Shown here piece after piece: positions 1,509-28,920 of a stretch of 39,715 nt of DNA; the first letter of the stretch is position 1, and every line of letters starts with the position of its first letter. Position numbers and translations under genes: made by a program. The notes beneath the pieces are model-generated. The model did not search any database, was not told the DNA's origin, and saw nothing but the letters and a program-made list of their open reading frames with translations. Source of the DNA: a bacterium (GTDB lineage Bacteria > Cyanobacteriota > Vampirovibrionia > Gastranaerophilales > Gastranaerophilaceae); the NCBI GenBank assembly GCA_017467605.1, contig JAFUSQ010000062.1, positions 1-39,715 of the forward strand, given 5' to 3'.

Positions 1509-1841
1509 CTAAAACTCATCTTCAGCAATTATTCTAAGTATACGATATGCTTTCTCAAGTCGAGACGAATCAAGTTTGATTTTATCAATATAACTATAAA
1601 TATCCGGAAGTATTTCTTCTTCTGTTCTTAAATGGTCATATGAAAATAATATATCAGCAGAAACATTTAATGTTTTCAAAATTTTATCTAAAGTCTCAGA
1701 TGTAACAAAGTTTTCTCCTGATTCTATCCTATTTAAGTTTCGAGGAGTAATATCAATCATATCTGCAAATTTTTCTTGGGTAAAACCTCTTAATTTTCTG
1801 AGCCGCTTAACTTTTTTACCTAACAGATTTTTAATACTCAT
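1509..1841 (-). CDS. XRE-family HTH regulator with helical C-terminal tail
   Basis: A 110-residue protein. Residues 7-62 form a lambda-repressor-like helix-turn-helix (RLRKLRGFTQEKFADMIDIT, then the recognition helix PRNLNRIESGE). A charged helical tail of about 40 residues follows and may dimerise. AAGAGG lies 8 bases before the ATG. It is divergent from the unknown gene at 2041, and the shared region holds a weak ACGTC...GACGT repeat (1860-1864 and 1883-1887). Overall layout resembles the XRE gene at 28603, but no prepilin gene faces it here. The target is unknown. Confidence 0.85.
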   Translation of the reverse strand: MSIKNLLGKKVKRLRKLRGFTQEKFADMIDITPRNLNRIESGENFVTSETLDKILKTLNVSADILFSYDHLRTEEEILPDIYSYIDKIKLDSSRLEKAYRILRIIAEDEF

Positions 1842-12385: not shown

Positions 12386-13111
12386 TTACAATTTTATCGG
12401 ATAATCAGATGGAATTTTGTAGCCGTTTTTTACAATAAGAGAAGAACAAAACGCATACGGGTGCGAATATAATGCCGGATATTCTTCATTTGATATACAA
12501 TGTTGTCTAAATTCTTCATAATTAAATTCATTCCCATAAAACTTATAATCATTATACCAATTACCGTTTTTGTCTGCTCTATATGTAAGCGTAAAAACGT
12601 CACGTCCTGAAACTAATTTTGATTTTTGAGGATTTAATATTACGGCAATATCAAATTTATTTTCATTAACTGCAAAAAATTCTAAAATTGTACCATCAAG
12701 CAAACCAACCATATAATAATATCCGAGTGTTCCAATTTTTGTCGATCCGTCAGCTGAATAAACGTCAAAAAGCGTATTTTTAGGATATTTTGTAACTACT
12801 TTAAAACCCAATGAAAAATTATCCTCAAACACTTGTTTACTTGATTCCCATGAATGACCGGCTGAATTATCATGTTCATCTCCGGATTTAACAACGGAAA
12901 AATCACTGTCAGTATTAGCCTGAACCATTCTTATACCTTGCAATATAGTTGAATTTATTTTATAGAGTTTATTTTCAATTTCACGTTTGTGATAATGACT
13001 TATTATTGCAGGAATAGTTATAGCACTAACAACCCCGATAATACCGATTGTAATGAGAATTTCTGCGAGAGTAAATGCTTTATTATTTTTCTTCTTTGTA
13101 AAATGTTTCAT
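12386..13111 (-). CDS. Prepilin-like protein A
   Basis: 241 residues. A 12-residue basic leader (MKHFTKKKNNKA) precedes FTLAEILITIGIIGVVSAITIP, a type IV pilin/pseudopilin N-terminal helix with the conserved Glu at mature position 5. Predicted cleavage is A|F, with Ala rather than the usual Gly at -1. The soluble domain (about 50-241) is beta-rich and has two Cys (residues 212 and 225) that may pair. Such proteins are inserted in the membrane, cut by prepilin peptidase and assembled by type IV pilus or type II secretion machinery. A strong AAGGAGG precedes the ATG. It is head-to-head with the XRE gene at 13173. Confidence 0.85.
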   Translation of the reverse strand: MKHFTKKKNNKAFTLAEILITIGIIGVVSAITIPAIISHYHKREIENKLYKINSTILQGIRMVQANTDSDFSVVKSGDEHDNSAGHSWESSKQVFEDNFSLGFKVVTKYPKNTLFDVYSADGSTKIGTLGYYYMVGLLDGTILEFFAVNENKFDIAVILNPQKSKLVSGRDVFTLTYRADKNGNWYNDYKFYGNEFNYEEFRQHCISNEEYPALYSHPYAFCSSLIVKNGYKIPSDYPIKL

Positions 13112-19177: not shown

Positions 19178-19918
19178 TTACCAAGGGTAGTCTTTTTCAA
19201 TTCTCCAACCGGCACGGCGGATTTTTTCCGCACAGTAAGATCCTCTACCGCTTTTTGAACAATTCTCGTTTATTTCATTATCAGTCATGCCATAACCATA
19301 TGGTCGAACACCTAAACCGTCCTCAATACGTTCAAGAAAAAATACATCTTTACCATATTTATTTGGTAACTCTCCGCCATTTATATCAATCATTATTTGG
19401 TTATTTTCATAAAATACACCATCACTTTTTGCTCCAATAAGAATAATATATAAAAGTCCATCAGCAGTATAAAAAGATGTTCTTGAATTTTCTAAAACAA
19501 CATTTCTTGTTGTATTGTTATTATTTGCATCTCTAAATGGGGCGCTACGATTATACCCGCAAGTTGAATATAAATCACAGTAAGTGACAACTTTCAAATA
19601 CGGCTGCCAGTATTGTTTAAAATATTCTTCAGCACCCATATTAAATGCACTGTCAGGTTCACCCTGTTCGTCAAACGATAATTTATAAGCCTGATTTATT
19701 ACAGAAATTCCTTTCTGTAATTTAGTAACAGTTGCTCGTTTTTGGTTTTCTTGGATTAAGCTTGGAATAGTCATTGCCGCGACTACCCCGATTATGCCGA
19801 TTGTTATAAGGACCTCTGCTAAAGTGAACGCAACCTTCTTTTCCCTTCGCCCAACGGGAGAGAGGGTATTACACTTACCCCATTTACCCTTTTTAATTTT
19901 CAATTTTACTAAATTCAT
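19178..19918 (-). CDS. Prepilin-like protein B with long leader
   Basis: 246 residues. Unusually, the basic leader is 30 residues and includes CNTLSPVGRREKK before VA|FTLAEVLITIGIIGVVAAM. The mature domain has Cys pairs (YCDLYSTCGY and NCSKSGRGSYC) and a DINGGELPNKYGKDVFFL block, a pattern shared with pilins C and D. That block probably marks the C-terminal sheet of this pilin class. The start is fixed by AAGAGG 5 bases before the ATG. The leader coding region contains one arm of a flanking inverted repeat. It is head-to-head with the HTH gene at 20044. Confidence 0.85.
   Translation of the reverse strand: MNLVKLKIKKGKWGKCNTLSPVGRREKKVAFTLAEVLITIGIIGVVAAMTIPSLIQENQKRATVTKLQKGISVINQAYKLSFDEQGEPDSAFNMGAEEYFKQYWQPYLKVVTYCDLYSTCGYNRSAPFRDANNNNTTRNVVLENSRTSFYTADGLLYIILIGAKSDGVFYENNQIMIDINGGELPNKYGKDVFFLERIEDGLGVRPYGYGMTDNEINENCSKSGRGSYCAEKIRRAGWRIEKDYPW
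19871..19889 (-). repeat. Right arm of the inverted repeat flanking pilin B
   Basis: ACACTTACCCCATTTACCC, the near-exact reverse complement of 19041-19060 (18 of 20 positions with one gap). It lies inside the leader-peptide coding part of pilin B and contributes its unusual extra residues. Confidence 0.6.
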
Positions 19919-23722: not shown

Positions 23723-24418
23723 CTATTTAGCAGTATTCAGAACATACATAGAAGCATTTGTTGCAGGAACTACATCATTAGGTTTTCCATCAGGTCGAGG
23801 GAAATAGATACGAAAAACATCAGTCATATGCTTAGCGTCATTTGGGACAGTGCATGGTACCTTTGCAGGAGATGGTGCAAACCAAGCATCATTTGTATCT
23901 TGATTGTCAGAGCAAGATACAATCTTATTTGGAAGAGAAACACCATTCACATCAATAAAACCTTCAGCAGCACTATCTGTACTTATTCCTACCAACGAAC
24001 CATCTGCTAAAGAATATAAATAATACTCATCTAAAAATATCGTACTTACGTAATTTCCATTTTCTTCCGGCGTAATATTATAGGTATTTCCTTTTGAATC
24101 TTTGACATCATCACCTTTACCTAAATAAGTAAGTCCTGTGATTGTACCGTTTAATATTGCACAAACAGTATGGTTTGTTTCAGGATTATCTGTTGCAGGA
24201 TTATCGCATTCAAAATTTTCTAAATCTGCAAAATTAAAATCATATTTAGCCTGAGACATTCTGTTTGCTTGTTTTAGTGTTGAAAAAGATTTTTTAAATT
24301 GATTTCTAAATTTTGCACCTTGAATTTTTGTCATCAATGTCGGAATAGTTATTGCTGCAACTACTCCGATTACACCGATTGTAATAAGTACTTCTGCTAA
24401 TGTAAAAGCTTTTCTCAT
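23723..24418 (-). CDS. Prepilin-like protein C
   Basis: 231 residues. A very short leader MRKA precedes FTLAEVLITIGVIGVVAAITIP, again Ala at -1 and Glu at +5. The soluble domain contains several Cys and the block GFIDVNGVSLPNKIVSCS, then NDAKHMTDVFRIYFPRP and the end YVLNTAK. These closely match pilin D, so C and D are paralogues. The block resembles a pilin-type sheet that could bind calcium or other subunits (inference). AAAGGAAG precedes the ATG. It is head-to-head with the XRE gene at 24489. Confidence 0.88.
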   Translation of the reverse strand: MRKAFTLAEVLITIGVIGVVAAITIPTLMTKIQGAKFRNQFKKSFSTLKQANRMSQAKYDFNFADLENFECDNPATDNPETNHTVCAILNGTITGLTYLGKGDDVKDSKGNTYNITPEENGNYVSTIFLDEYYLYSLADGSLVGISTDSAAEGFIDVNGVSLPNKIVSCSDNQDTNDAWFAPSPAKVPCTVPNDAKHMTDVFRIYFPRPDGKPNDVVPATNASMYVLNTAK

Positions 24419-24436: not shown

Positions 24437-24455
24437 TGTAATGTGTCACCTTACA
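24437..24455. promoter_or_regulatory. Candidate 19-bp operator of cassette C
   Basis: TGTAATGTG-T-CACCTTACA is a 9-bp inverted repeat with one mismatch around a central T. It is in the 70-bp region between pilin C and its XRE partner, in the likely 5' leader or start region of the pilin transcript. Size and symmetry fit an XRE dimer. Confidence 0.6.
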
Positions 24456-24488
24456 TATTTATTCATATTATTATCGCAAAATATAATT

Positions 24489-24698
24489 ATGTCAAGACTT
24501 AAGCAACTCGGACAAAATATAAAACAATACAGAAAAGCAAAAAAATTGTCTCAAAATCAGCTTGCCGAAATACTTGATTTTTCACGAGAACATCTTGCCT
24601 GTGTGGAAACAGGCAAGGAATTCATAAGTCTGAGAAAATTGTTCGAGATTGCTGATACACTTGAAATTTCTATGAAAAATTTAATAAATTTTGATTAG
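24489..24698 (+). CDS. XRE-family HTH regulator paired with pilin C
   Basis: 69 residues, a bare Cro/C1-type HTH domain: LGQNIKQYRKAKKLSQNQLAEILD (helices 1-2), FSREHLACVETGKE (recognition helix), LRKLFEIADTLEISMKNL. I chose the ATG at 24489, next to the canonical domain start; an in-frame ATG at 24441 would add 16 hydrophobic residues and lies inside the operator. No Shine-Dalgarno: ATATAATT directly precedes the ATG. Probably represses pilin C and itself. Confidence 0.85.
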   Translation: MSRLKQLGQNIKQYRKAKKLSQNQLAEILDFSREHLACVETGKEFISLRKLFEIADTLEISMKNLINFD

Positions 24699-24715: not shown

Positions 24716-25330
24716 TTACTCAAATTTTTTGATTAATCTATCTTCCGGCGTATTAGGAATGGTTTCAACACCGTCCGAATAAAGTAAAATATTAAATCGG
24801 TCTCCCACCCTGCTGCCAACAGAGAATTTATTTGCGCCCTTATTAAATCCGTCAGCATCAACCGTTAAAATTGCACAAGCTGTTTTTTCAGATATTTTTT
24901 CAGGTTTGCGCTGACAAGTGCCGCTTATTTTTTCATATTTTACTTCGGTTAAATCAGCAAGAACAATACCGTTTTCAATATCTTGATATCTGCTTAATTG
25001 CCCTTTAATCGCCTTATTCCAAACATCATCAAATGTTGTATAATATTTTCCGGAAATTGCATTATCCATTAAAATAGCCTGATTAAAGGTTGAATAAGTC
25101 TTTTTAAATATAGCTTTATTTCTCGCCTGCTCAGTACTTGCAACAAGTGTGGGAATAGTCATAGCAGCCACTATCCCAATTATGGGCAATCCAAAAAATC
25201 CTGTACCTGCAAGAACTATCAATACTATTGCCCAAACAGGAAAAGTATCGTGTTTTATTTTTGCGCCACAATTCGGACATATATTTATTTTCTTATCCTC
25301 AATTTCCGTTCCGCAATTCACACATTTCAT
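24716..25330 (-). CDS. Zinc-ribbon/pilin-like chimeric membrane protein
   Basis: 204 residues. It starts with a zinc ribbon (Cys3, Cys6, Cys18, Cys21: CVNCGTEI and CPNCGAKI). A hydrophobic stretch follows (about 31-63), whose second half GIVAAMTIPTLVASTEQARNKA is the end of a prepilin helix as seen in the pilins nearby. FKKTYSTFNQAILM then continues as in pilin C. The cleavable leader and FTLAE motif are missing, so it should remain uncut and membrane-anchored with the ribbon in the cytoplasm. The DADGFNKGANKFSVGSRVGD block recalls the DVNG...PNK block of pilins. AGGAGG precedes the ATG. Convergent with the cassette C regulator. Confidence 0.8.
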   Translation of the reverse strand: MKCVNCGTEIEDKKINICPNCGAKIKHDTFPVWAIVLIVLAGTGFFGLPIIGIVAAMTIPTLVASTEQARNKAIFKKTYSTFNQAILMDNAISGKYYTTFDDVWNKAIKGQLSRYQDIENGIVLADLTEVKYEKISGTCQRKPEKISEKTACAILTVDADGFNKGANKFSVGSRVGDRFNILLYSDGVETIPNTPEDRLIKKFE

Positions 25331-25378
25331 AAAAACCTCCTAACAAATAAAATTAATATACCACAAATTAATAAATCA

Positions 25379-25387: not shown

Positions 25388-25422
25388 AAATTTGTATTTT
25401 GGCAGGAAATCAAGAGGGATAT

Positions 25423-26532
25423 ATGGAAGGAAATAACACTGAAAAAGCTCGTACAGTTGATTTTATCAGACATTATTTAGCATCAGCTTTTATTTACGGA
25501 ACAATTTTAATATTTATGGCATTTTGTCCGGCATATGTTGATACTCTTGAGGATACAGGATTTGATTATACAACATTTTTTACGATATACTTTGTCGGAT
25601 ATTTAGTTCTGGCTCCGTTATTTTATGCATTATTTAAACCACAAACCGTTTTACAATCAAGAAGTTTGACTATTTTCGGATACTTTGCAAGACAATTTAG
25701 AAGAAATCAATCTACCGAATATTTTCTTCAAAATCTTTCACCTACGGAAGAAGAAAAAAATGCTTTTATGATTCTGTTTATACAAACATTTTTCGGTATC
25801 TACAGTATAAATCTTCTTTGTAATTCGTATCTTCCGAGTCTTGGCTATAATTTAGACTTTCTAAAAGTTATGTTTTCGGATGCAATGACATATATTTCAG
25901 GCGGAAACGGCATTATGGCAGGCATTATGCAATTTTTAATCGATACAGGTGATATGTGGATAAGGTTAACAACAACAATTACACTGATTGTTCTTTCTTT
26001 GAGTTATCTTACAGAACTTGATATCTTCAAAAACAGGATTAAATCTACGGATACAACACCTTTAGGTATAATTTCATGTATCGCATGTTATTATCCTGTG
26101 ACAATATTAACAGATAAATTTTTACATATAACAGATCAATCTTTACTTCCTGTTAATAATACTGTTTTATTAGCAATTTTAAATTTGTTAGCAATTATTG
26201 CAAACATAGGTATAATGATTGCTGTAATCAGACTCGGAGCAAAATCCGGAAATCTTACAAATCGCGGAATAGTAACAGGATTTCCTTATAACATTGTAAG
26301 ACACCCTGATTATGCTATGCAAATTTTATACATAATAATTACGACAATTCCGCTTTACATGTTGTCCAATGCAGGAAAATTTGACAAAACAGTTATGACA
26401 GTAGCAACATTAGGCTGGATTTTGCTTTACCTATTTAGAGCGATAACAGAAGAACGTCATTTGATAAAAGATCCTGATTATCAAAAATATGTGGAAAAAG
26501 TTAAATATAGATTTATTCCGAAATTATTTTAA
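25423..26532 (+). CDS. ICMT-like integral membrane methyltransferase family protein
   Basis: 369 residues from ATG 25423. This start is preferred over an upstream in-frame TTG because AAGAGGG sits about 7 bases before the ATG. Eight or more hydrophobic segments are present. The C-terminal third has the isoprenylcysteine/phospholipid methyltransferase signature: NIVRHPDYAMQILY, then LFRAITEERHLIKDPDYQKY and VKYRFIP. Family members methylate lipids, quinone precursors or thiols using SAM from the membrane interior. The large N-terminal membrane domain is unlike the minimal ICMT, so the substrate is open. Monocistronic. Confidence 0.82.
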   Translation: MEGNNTEKARTVDFIRHYLASAFIYGTILIFMAFCPAYVDTLEDTGFDYTTFFTIYFVGYLVLAPLFYALFKPQTVLQSRSLTIFGYFARQFRRNQSTEYFLQNLSPTEEEKNAFMILFIQTFFGIYSINLLCNSYLPSLGYNLDFLKVMFSDAMTYISGGNGIMAGIMQFLIDTGDMWIRLTTTITLIVLSLSYLTELDIFKNRIKSTDTTPLGIISCIACYYPVTILTDKFLHITDQSLLPVNNTVLLAILNLLAIIANIGIMIAVIRLGAKSGNLTNRGIVTGFPYNIVRHPDYAMQILYIIITTIPLYMLSNAGKFDKTVMTVATLGWILLYLFRAITEERHLIKDPDYQKYVEKVKYRFIPKLF

Positions 26533-27162: not shown

Positions 27163-27615
27163 TTATACATTTAAATCAGATGTACAATGAGGACATTTAA
27201 CTGCTCTTATATCAATTTCGGTAAAACAATAAGGACATTGTTTTACTGTAGGAACTGCAGCCTCATCTGCGGCATCTTGAGCAGTTTTGTCAGCTCTAAG
27301 TTTATTTATTCCCTTAATCAAAATAAATACTGCAAAAGCAACTAATAAAAAACTTATAATTGTATTGATAAACACACCATAATTGATATTAACAACATCT
27401 CCTTCTCTGCCGGTTGGGATAGACAAAACTAATTTTGAAAAATCAACTCTGCCCATTAACCAACCCAAAGGAGGCATAATAACATCATTTACCAAAGAAT
27501 CAACAATCTTACCAAAAGATGCACCAATAATTATACCGACAGCCATGTCAATAACATTACCGCGCATTGCAAAAGTTTTGAATTCATCACCGTATCTTTT
27601 CAATCTTTCAATCAT
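27163..27615 (-). CDS. mscL: Large-conductance mechanosensitive channel with C-terminal zinc ribbon
   Basis: 150 residues from ATG 27615, chosen over an in-frame GTG that overlaps the AAAGG ribosome-binding site. The N-terminal half is classical MscL: DEFKTFAMRGNVIDMAVGIIIGASFGKIVDSLVNDVIMPPLGWLMG, with pore helix TM1 near 15-45 and TM2 near 72-96. MscL opens under membrane tension to relieve hypo-osmotic shock. Instead of the usual short C-terminal helix, it continues through an Ala/Asp linker into a zinc ribbon (CPYC at about 129-132, CPHC at about 143-146). A perfect consensus promoter precedes it. Confidence 0.95.
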   Translation of the reverse strand: MIERLKRYGDEFKTFAMRGNVIDMAVGIIIGASFGKIVDSLVNDVIMPPLGWLMGRVDFSKLVLSIPTGREGDVVNINYGVFINTIISFLLVAFAVFILIKGINKLRADKTAQDAADEAAVPTVKQCPYCFTEIDIRAVKCPHCTSDLNV

Positions 27616-27658
27616 TTTCCACACCTTTCAAATAAACTATCTAACCAAAAGATAAGTC

Positions 27659-27695: not shown

Positions 27696-28445
27696 TTACT
27701 TAGCAGTTCTTAATACATATCTAGCTGCAGCAGATGCAGGCTCTACTACACTATCATGAAATCTTATCGGATAAATATCTGTCATATGCTCGGAATCATT
27801 TTTTACAATACAAGTATTTTCAGATAACAGATTTTTCCCGCTTGAGCAACTTACTTCTTTATTTGGAAGATTTACACCATTTACATCAATAAAGCCGTAA
27901 CAATCATTCAAACTACCTCCGGAGTAATTTTCCCCAAGAGTTTCCCCAACCGGTAAAGAACAAGGATTGTCAATTCCTAAAACATTTGGAAATGCAATAA
28001 TAATTCCGTTAGATAAAACGTATGAATGAAATCTATCAAGATTATTGCCGCTACCACTGGTAAGAATTGCTGAATAGGAAAGTGTTGTACTATAATTCAA
28101 TATACTATTAACTTTTGTCATTTGTATCTCAGATGCTTTATCATAATAAGTTACGCCTGTTAAAGTTCCGTTGAGCAAAGAACAAATAGTTTGAACCGAC
28201 TCAGGCTTTTCATTTCCGCCATTTGCTCCGCACTTAGCATTAATTCCGGCATAATCAAATCCATATTGTGCTTGTGACAATCTTGCCGCATTACTCAATG
28301 TGGAAACAGTTTTCTTAAGTTTTTGCCTATATTGATGAGCTTTGATATTACTTAATAAACTCGGAATTGTAAGAGCTGATACGACACCAATAATACCGAT
28401 AGTTATGAGGATTTCAGCTAATGTAAAAGCTTTATTGTTTCGCAT
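27696..28445 (-). CDS. Prepilin-like protein D
   Basis: 249 residues from ATG 28445; AAGGAG lies 7 bases upstream, so a longer in-frame start at 28466 is rejected. Leader MRNNKA, then FTLAEILITIGIIGVVSALTIP (Ala at -1, Glu at +5). The soluble part shares with pilin C the blocks LSQAQYGFDYAGI, ICSLLNGTLTGVTY, GFIDVNGVNLPNKEVSCS, NDSEHMTDIYPIRF and the end YVLRTAK. It is therefore a paralogue. Six or more Cys suggest disulfides. Head-to-head with the XRE gene at 28603. Confidence 0.88.
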   Translation of the reverse strand: MRNNKAFTLAEILITIGIIGVVSALTIPSLLSNIKAHQYRQKLKKTVSTLSNAARLSQAQYGFDYAGINAKCGANGGNEKPESVQTICSLLNGTLTGVTYYDKASEIQMTKVNSILNYSTTLSYSAILTSGSGNNLDRFHSYVLSNGIIIAFPNVLGIDNPCSLPVGETLGENYSGGSLNDCYGFIDVNGVNLPNKEVSCSSGKNLLSENTCIVKNDSEHMTDIYPIRFHDSVVEPASAAARYVLRTAK

Positions 28446-28472
28446 AAATATTCTCCTTATTCGCATAATTTC

Positions 28473-28602: not shown

Positions 28603-28920
28603 ATGGACATAAAAGTATTACTTGGGAAAAGAATAAGAGAATACAGACAAAAATATAATTATACACAATCACAACTTGCGGAATTACTTGGTATAGATGA
28701 CAAGCATTTAAGCAGAATAGAACTTGGCAAAAACATGCCAAATCCGGTATTATTAGAAAAATTAGCTAATTTATTCAAAATAGAATTAAAAGATTTGTTT
28801 GAATTATCACATCTTGAACAGCCTGAAATAATAAGAAAAAAATTGCAAGAAATAATAAACGAACTGCCAACGGATCAATTGTTATTGACATATAAATACG
28901 TAAAAACATTTGTGATATAA
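28603..28920 (+). CDS. XRE-family HTH regulator paired with pilin D
   Basis: 105 residues. A canonical Cro/C1 HTH spans about 7-62: LGKRIREYRQKYNYTQSQLAELLG, then IDDKHLSRIELGKN. A C-terminal helical tail (about 63-105, ending TYKYVKTFVI) probably dimerises. Unlike the other three partners it has a good ribosome-binding site (AAAGGGA). It is divergent from pilin D across 157 bp, with two candidate operators in between. Size and tail resemble the XRE gene at 1509. Confidence 0.88.
   Translation: MDIKVLLGKRIREYRQKYNYTQSQLAELLGIDDKHLSRIELGKNMPNPVLLEKLANLFKIELKDLFELSHLEQPEIIRKKLQEIINELPTDQLLLTYKYVKTFVI

Follow-up and report, generated by a model that had tools for sequence, protein, structure and literature searches.

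A probable pilin-derived membrane protein with an N-terminal zinc ribbon and no prepilin processing signal in a genus of the Gastranaerophilaceae

What does a pilin-like protein do when its N-terminus is a zinc ribbon instead of a leader that can be cleaved? What defines a pilin is a signal through which prepilin peptidase and the assembly platform draw the subunit into a fibre, and the free, methylated N-terminus and Glu5 of known pilins are located in the fibre core. We analysed a gene for a protein of 204 aa that raises this question. It lies in the window, i.e. the whole stretch of 39,715 nucleotides that was analysed, which is one contig (C47) of a draft MAG (G000) from the Gastranaerophilales, a lineage of gut bacteria. 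A first-pass annotation of the sequence had proposed an uncleavable, membrane-fixed pilin with a cytoplasmic sensor or docking domain, perhaps an assembly regulator.

In the ORF check of the window, the coordinates of the gene corresponded to exactly one ORF (Table 1). The protein has orthologs in the same genus (E 1e-53 to 1e-71), and the membrane form, with helix and head, was found in 10 of the 46 genomes of the genus, so the architecture is not confined to a single genome. Purifying selection was seen in three unsaturated species pairs of membrane forms (dN/dS 0.22–0.32). The division of the draft MAG into 79 contigs would allow for an artefact, meaning a chimeric assembly, a wrong start codon or a decaying pseudogene. 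Against this stand the strong ribosome-binding site, the purifying selection and the presence of this architecture, with synteny conserved, in eight species; the orthologs already refute an artefact, and the chance of one is negligible. The full-length relatives in the same genus also ruled out a one-genome accident as the origin of the fusion. An origin from a mobile element or phage was ruled out as well: viral contigs and plasmids were searched, and neither contained a relative.

Table 1. Positions of the features of the pilin-derived gene and of its divergent neighbour in the window
Feature	Coordinates	Strand	Basis
CDS, 204 aa: zinc ribbon, long TM helix and pilin-type periplasmic domain	24716..25330	-	ORF, orthologs, dN/dS
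Ribosome-binding site AGGAGG, 5 nt before ATG	25336..25341	-	Sequence
Cys4 zinc ribbon, residues 1-27 (C3, C6, C18, C21)	25250..25330	-	Pfam, alignment, model pLDDT about 85-90
D-x-[FM]-P-x-W motif, residues 28-33, start of membrane helix	25232..25249	-	Alignments
Hydrophobic segment, residues 31-63	25142..25240	-	Alignment with canonical pilins
One continuous helix, residues 32-93: pilin alpha1 lengthened at the N side	25052..25237	-	AlphaFold2
Pilin-type globular domain, residues 94-204	24719..25051	-	AlphaFold2, structural matches, conservation with signal-peptide forms
C139/C152 pair, residues 139-152, invariant in family, probable periplasmic disulfide	24875..24916	-	Alignment
Membrane protein with ICMT/PEMT-like methyltransferase C-terminus, divergent neighbour, locus marker	25399..26532	+	Pfam, synteny

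The CX2C...CX2C ribbon followed by a pilin-like helix, as first described, was borne out. The two pairs are C3–C6 and C18–C21, and they were invariant in all eight ribbon-bearing copies (eight species). Zn_Ribbon_1 (PF13240) matched the 204-aa protein with 22.7 bits (E 8e-5), slightly short of the cut-off of 25 bits, and the ortholog L188 with 33.3 bits, above the cut-off. Judged by sequence, residues 1–27 form a Cys4 knuckle of the Zn_Ribbon_1 type, and zinc binding is predicted. In the motif that follows, D28, P31 and W33 were invariant in 6/6 aligned membrane forms; the motif was visible in all ten membrane forms, including two without an intact ribbon.

The helix itself is that of a pilin. 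Residues 39–63 aligned with positions 1–25 of pilin alpha1-N, with G52 corresponding to G14 and P60 to P22, and GIVAAMTIPTLV (residues 52–63) matched mature pilin positions 14–25. The segment LPIIGIVAAMTIPTLV is a hydrophobic alpha1-N with the pilin pattern, and it aligned, as a pilin should, with canonical pilins of the same order. Among the membrane forms, equivalents of G14, A18 and P22 were retained, A17 nearly always, and the residues of alpha1-N were about as conserved as the head. Positive charges flank the helix on both sides, and homology points to an N-in topology.

The processing features of a pilin were absent. No class III signal was found: WAIVLI (residues 33–38) precedes the pilin +1 position (V39), and there is no basic leader. 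By alignment, cleavage would fall between Ile38 and Val39, which puts Ile at -1 instead of Gly or Ala. At +5, Glu is replaced by Thr43, and none of the ten membrane forms had a Glu at the equivalent position. N_methyl (PF07963) was missing from the Pfam matches of the 204-aa protein even at E 1. The lack of an FTLAE motif and a basic leader, noticed in the first reading, is thus confirmed. Residues 29–66 are free of charge. This stretch of 38 residues (35–38 in the family) is longer than in two canonical pilins (21–26 residues) because the hydrophobic residues W33–I38 replace the basic leader.

The ribbon-bearing full-length form occurred in eight species (G000, G028, G012, G025, G035, G060, G061 and G059). 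G024 has no ribbon left and G067 a degenerate one; both keep the D-x-[FM]-P-x-W interface motif, the helix and the head. In the genus, the usual order is prfB, the pilin-derived gene and a divergent gene for an ICMT-like methyltransferase, often with MscL near; in the window itself, prfB does not adjoin the pilin-derived gene. The ICMT/PEMT-like protein is polytopic and present in 36/46 genomes of the genus. At 13 loci without the pilin-derived gene, prfB and the ICMT-like gene were 3–91 bp apart on the same strand; hence, the gene is cargo that was inserted in some members of the genus. It was missing from most of the genus, though the genomes without it also carry many pilins. In other species, the slot held unrelated genes, a GDSL-type hydrolase (L182 of G062) and a HemW-like gene (L179 of G064), and may be a hot spot for insertions.

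No pilus-machinery genes adjoined the gene: its neighbours in the genus are prfB, the ICMT-like gene and MscL, and those in the window are a lone pilin gene and the genes for a NAD synthase and an XRE regulator. Location beside pilus genes is a weak criterion here, since the majority of pilin genes in this genome are not near the pilus machinery either. The MscL of the window (27163–27624, - strand) has a C-terminal CPxC...CPxC zinc ribbon that is common to its orthologs in the genus (e.g. L186 2112–2585). It and the 204-aa protein come from two nearby membrane genes, both with predicted cytoplasmic ribbons.

In five genomes (G018, G007, G068, G001 and G009), the prfB/ICMT locus encoded the head behind a putative Sec-type signal peptide without a lipobox, called by eye and with a simple -3/-1 rule rather than with a dedicated predictor. 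The whole ribbon and pilin helix are replaced in these forms. Three genomes (G035, G067 and G061) carried a membrane form and a signal-peptide form in tandem, 10–14 bp apart. The family was monophyletic in the tree (support 98/96), and seven signal-peptide forms made up one clade. The alpha1-C helix is retained in the signal-peptide form G061b, which was nested among the membrane forms and is clearly an independent, later N-terminal swap. Between the membrane form and the main signal-peptide clade, the change may have run in either direction. In a different genus and a different gene context (G212, L268 1501–2253, + strand), a signal-peptide pilin head was found with an extra C-terminal domain.

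The AlphaFold2 model, built from an alignment of 24 sequences, had a pLDDT of 91.2 and consisted of a single 62-residue helix followed by a compact alpha/beta head. This is the lollipop fold of pilins, with moderate match scores. In VIA-align, the top seven matches were all pilins or pseudopilins, and the match spanned helix and head. The best was PilA5 6xxe (110 residues, 4.0 Å), whose Z of 6.6 falls below the caution level of the tool (8). It was followed by the PAK pilin 1oqw (Z 4.6), FimA 3sok (4.4), XcpG 9a1f (4.0), the EpsG-type major pseudopilins 4lw9 and 3gn9 (both 3.9) and the pilin 1ay2 (3.5); non-pilin chains started at Z 3.4. The top match in Foldseek was the pilin 1ay2 and was not significant (best E 0.47). 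A profile search of the PDB placed pilins first, with a profile that included six canonical pilins. The first-pass annotation had named structure prediction as a check, and residues 60–204 did not turn out to be unrelated to pilins. The model of the signal-peptide form alone matched a pilin weakly (3sok, Z 3.6). As most of its matches were nonspecific, this form is taken to be pilin-like on the basis of its homology, in sequence, with the membrane form. Both forms share, without exception, the cysteine pair and the residues D158, G161, N167, Y184 and E196.

The genome is rich in ordinary pilins, with 149 N_methyl matches in 2.19 Mb that are spread over many contigs. Four pilin genes in the window (12386–13111, 19178–19918, 23723–24418 and 27696–28466) had no adjoining pilus-machinery genes. 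Small XRE-type regulators were seen at 24441–24698 (+), 28603–28920 (+) and 1509–1841 (-), the first two adjoining pilin-like genes divergently. A canonical pilin frame of L119 (1099–2286, + strand) has a long N-terminal extension that resembles translated repeat DNA (CHSELVSES...MLKQVQHDKSKK) before AFTLAEV.

A search for prepilin peptidase gave no match at E 0.01. At E 0.1, a divergent Peptidase_A24 match was present in 45/46 genomes of the genus, mostly in open frames of about 350–430 aa, and this ruled out a missing peptidase as the cause of the missing site. The only plausible candidate of the genome itself is C46:13675–14100 (E 0.013, far below the Pfam cut-off). With a candidate in the genome and in the genus, the loss of the processing signal is specific to the 204-aa protein, and the ordinary pilins of the genome can presumably be processed. 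The divergent peptidase, together with the pilin fold and alpha1, would also suit a functional minor pilin that enters pili after being cut at an unconventional site. However, the protein has no Gly/Ala-Phe/Met site, Glu5 or basic leader, its 35–38 uncharged residues offer no polar border for cleavage, and the signal-peptide forms lack an alpha1-N for polymerising. We regard a minor pilin as very improbable.

A profile of ribbon and helix was run against 386 sampled genomes of the phylum, and the full ribbon-pilin fusion was found solely in this genus. The genome of the window had no further ribbon-pilin fusions; its other Zn_Ribbon_1 matches did not coincide with pilin matches. A ribbon and a TM segment without the pilin part were found on LprI-like and PDZ-domain proteins of relatives (Gastranaerophilales), and the ribbon-TM segment is a general N-terminal module in these bacteria. 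Among the ribbon-TM proteins compared, the D-x-[FM]-P-x-W motif was confined to the pilin-derived family. The simplest inference for the origin is a domain replacement, in which a pilin would have lost its leader and the gene would have gained an N-terminus of the ribbon/TM type. Later, at least one copy (G061b) would have traded its whole N-terminal half for a signal peptide.

Alignments and model together show a pilin head on a continuous alpha1, in which the ribbon, some seven added hydrophobic residues and the conserved D-x-[FM]-P-x-W motif stand in place of the leader, the cleavage site and Glu5. The protein is probably an exapted type IV pilin that is tethered in the inner membrane and predicted to be unable to polymerise. 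Inserted N-in/C-out, it would have a cytoplasmic ribbon and a periplasmic head. Prepilin peptidase would not be able to process the ribbon-anchored form, and the ribbon at the start of the helix and the missing Glu5 would exclude it from the filament core. The result would be a single-pass inner-membrane protein that displays a pilin head. This supports the original idea of an uncleavable, membrane-fixed pilin: prepilin peptidase should not recognise such a pilin body, which should hence stay a membrane anchor.

The proposed role of the ribbon as a sensor or docking domain fared less well. The ribbon is lost or degenerate in two membrane forms and absent from the signal-peptide forms, and ribbon-TM segments also serve as a general module on other domains. 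It is probably a generic folded anchor. The conserved function would be carried by the head, since the relatives at this locus have heads that either lack a ribbon or follow a Sec-type signal peptide, and since a membrane-bound copy lies beside a secreted one in three genomes. As ribbon and helix are dispensable, the partner of the head would be the conserved element. Most likely, the head acts in the periplasm by binding an envelope partner, either pilus machinery or something unrelated.

Evidence against a mere tether came from the helix. The membrane forms retain pilin alpha1-N residues that a mere anchor would not need, which may mean that the helix remains in contact with pilins or the pilus machinery. 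The moderate fold matches, the weakly pilin-like model of the signal-peptide form and the topology, which is taken from homology while both sides of the helix are positively charged, also weigh against the exapted, tethered pilin. The retained residues, and the 149 pilin-motif matches as something to regulate, would fit a pilus assembly regulator or adaptor. Such an uncleavable pilin would sit in the inner membrane beside the assembly platform, pair with pilins via alpha1-N and control the start, growth or anchoring of filaments, with the ribbon docking cytoplasmic pilus proteins. Direct evidence for the regulator suggested by the first-pass annotation was not found, and the gene is not among pilus-machinery genes. 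The changes to the ribbon in G024 and G067, the signal-peptide forms without a membrane helix and the lack of the gene in most of a genus with many pilins also argue against it, and we consider this role rather unlikely.

A stand-alone envelope protein is the better candidate of the two, though still short of probable. Its head would bind a ligand, a surface or an inhibitor target unrelated to pili, and its N-terminus would merely set the delivery, tethered or released. This agrees with the three interchangeable delivery modes and the co-encoded tethered and released copies, with the occurrence of the ribbon-TM module on LprI-like and PDZ proteins too, with the patchy, cargo-like distribution at one locus and with the extra C-terminal domain of the head in G212. 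It leaves the conservation of pilin alpha1-N in the membrane forms unexplained, and no ligand or enzymatic motif was found. Both readings are narrower forms of the exapted, tethered pilin, and the regulator can hold together with it.

More tentatively, the exapted pilin could represent a clade-specific family that takes the pilin head off the filament and presents it in two envelope forms, ribbon-capped and tethered or Sec-released, which are sometimes paired. One conceivable role is that of a receptor or decoy, itself unable to polymerise, through which the many pilins of these cells would be controlled or exploited. The canonical pilin, the ribbon-anchored uncleavable form, the anchored form without a ribbon and the head with a signal peptide make up a natural series, the last three at one locus. 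The series shows a filament subunit being turned into a non-filament envelope protein, and its naturally occurring variants could be used to find out what each part of a pilin is needed for. For annotation, it calls for caution: such proteins obtain pilin scores over part of their sequence, yet they are unlikely to be pilus subunits.

With type IV pilins and pseudopilins (PilA/PilE, GspG; PF07963), the protein shares the IIG(V/I)VAA-T-P pattern of alpha1, the lollipop fold and a head with a DxNG...N loop and a Cys pair. Unlike them, it has no class III leader, cleavage site or Glu5 but an N-terminal zinc ribbon; its gene lies outside a pilus operon, and its relatives have Sec-type signal peptides for export. 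As it has the helix pattern and the fold and lacks the processing features, it is classed as pilin-derived rather than as a pilin. Short canonical pilins of sister genera (L200–L209, 170–198 aa) have a similar head size and aligned from position 43 of the family profile to near its end (E about 1e-21 to 1e-23). They differ in having FTLAE and a basic leader, and they form a separate clade in the tree, which ruled out direct descent from them. With the LprI- and PDZ-type ribbon proteins of Gastranaerophilales, the protein shares the modular ribbon and single TM followed by an exported domain; what sets it apart is that a modified pilin helix serves as the TM and a pilin head as the exported domain. 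The TcaA-like proteins of Firmicutes presumably have the same order of N-terminal zinc ribbon, TM and exported domain.

No zinc-ribbon pilin turned up in a search of the literature. In a survey of pilus operons, an asterisk marks pilin-like proteins in which no prepilin cleavage site was recognised (PMC3244431). Mitochondrial GspG has a long N-terminal extension in a host without prepilin peptidase, and its processing probably yields a mature form like that of bacteria (PMC10128026). Like these (PMC3244431, PMC10128026), the 204-aa protein is pilin-like and stands without or outside normal prepilin processing. Unlike the 204-aa protein, they have no reported zinc ribbon, and they are or may be parts of a pilus or T2SS machine.
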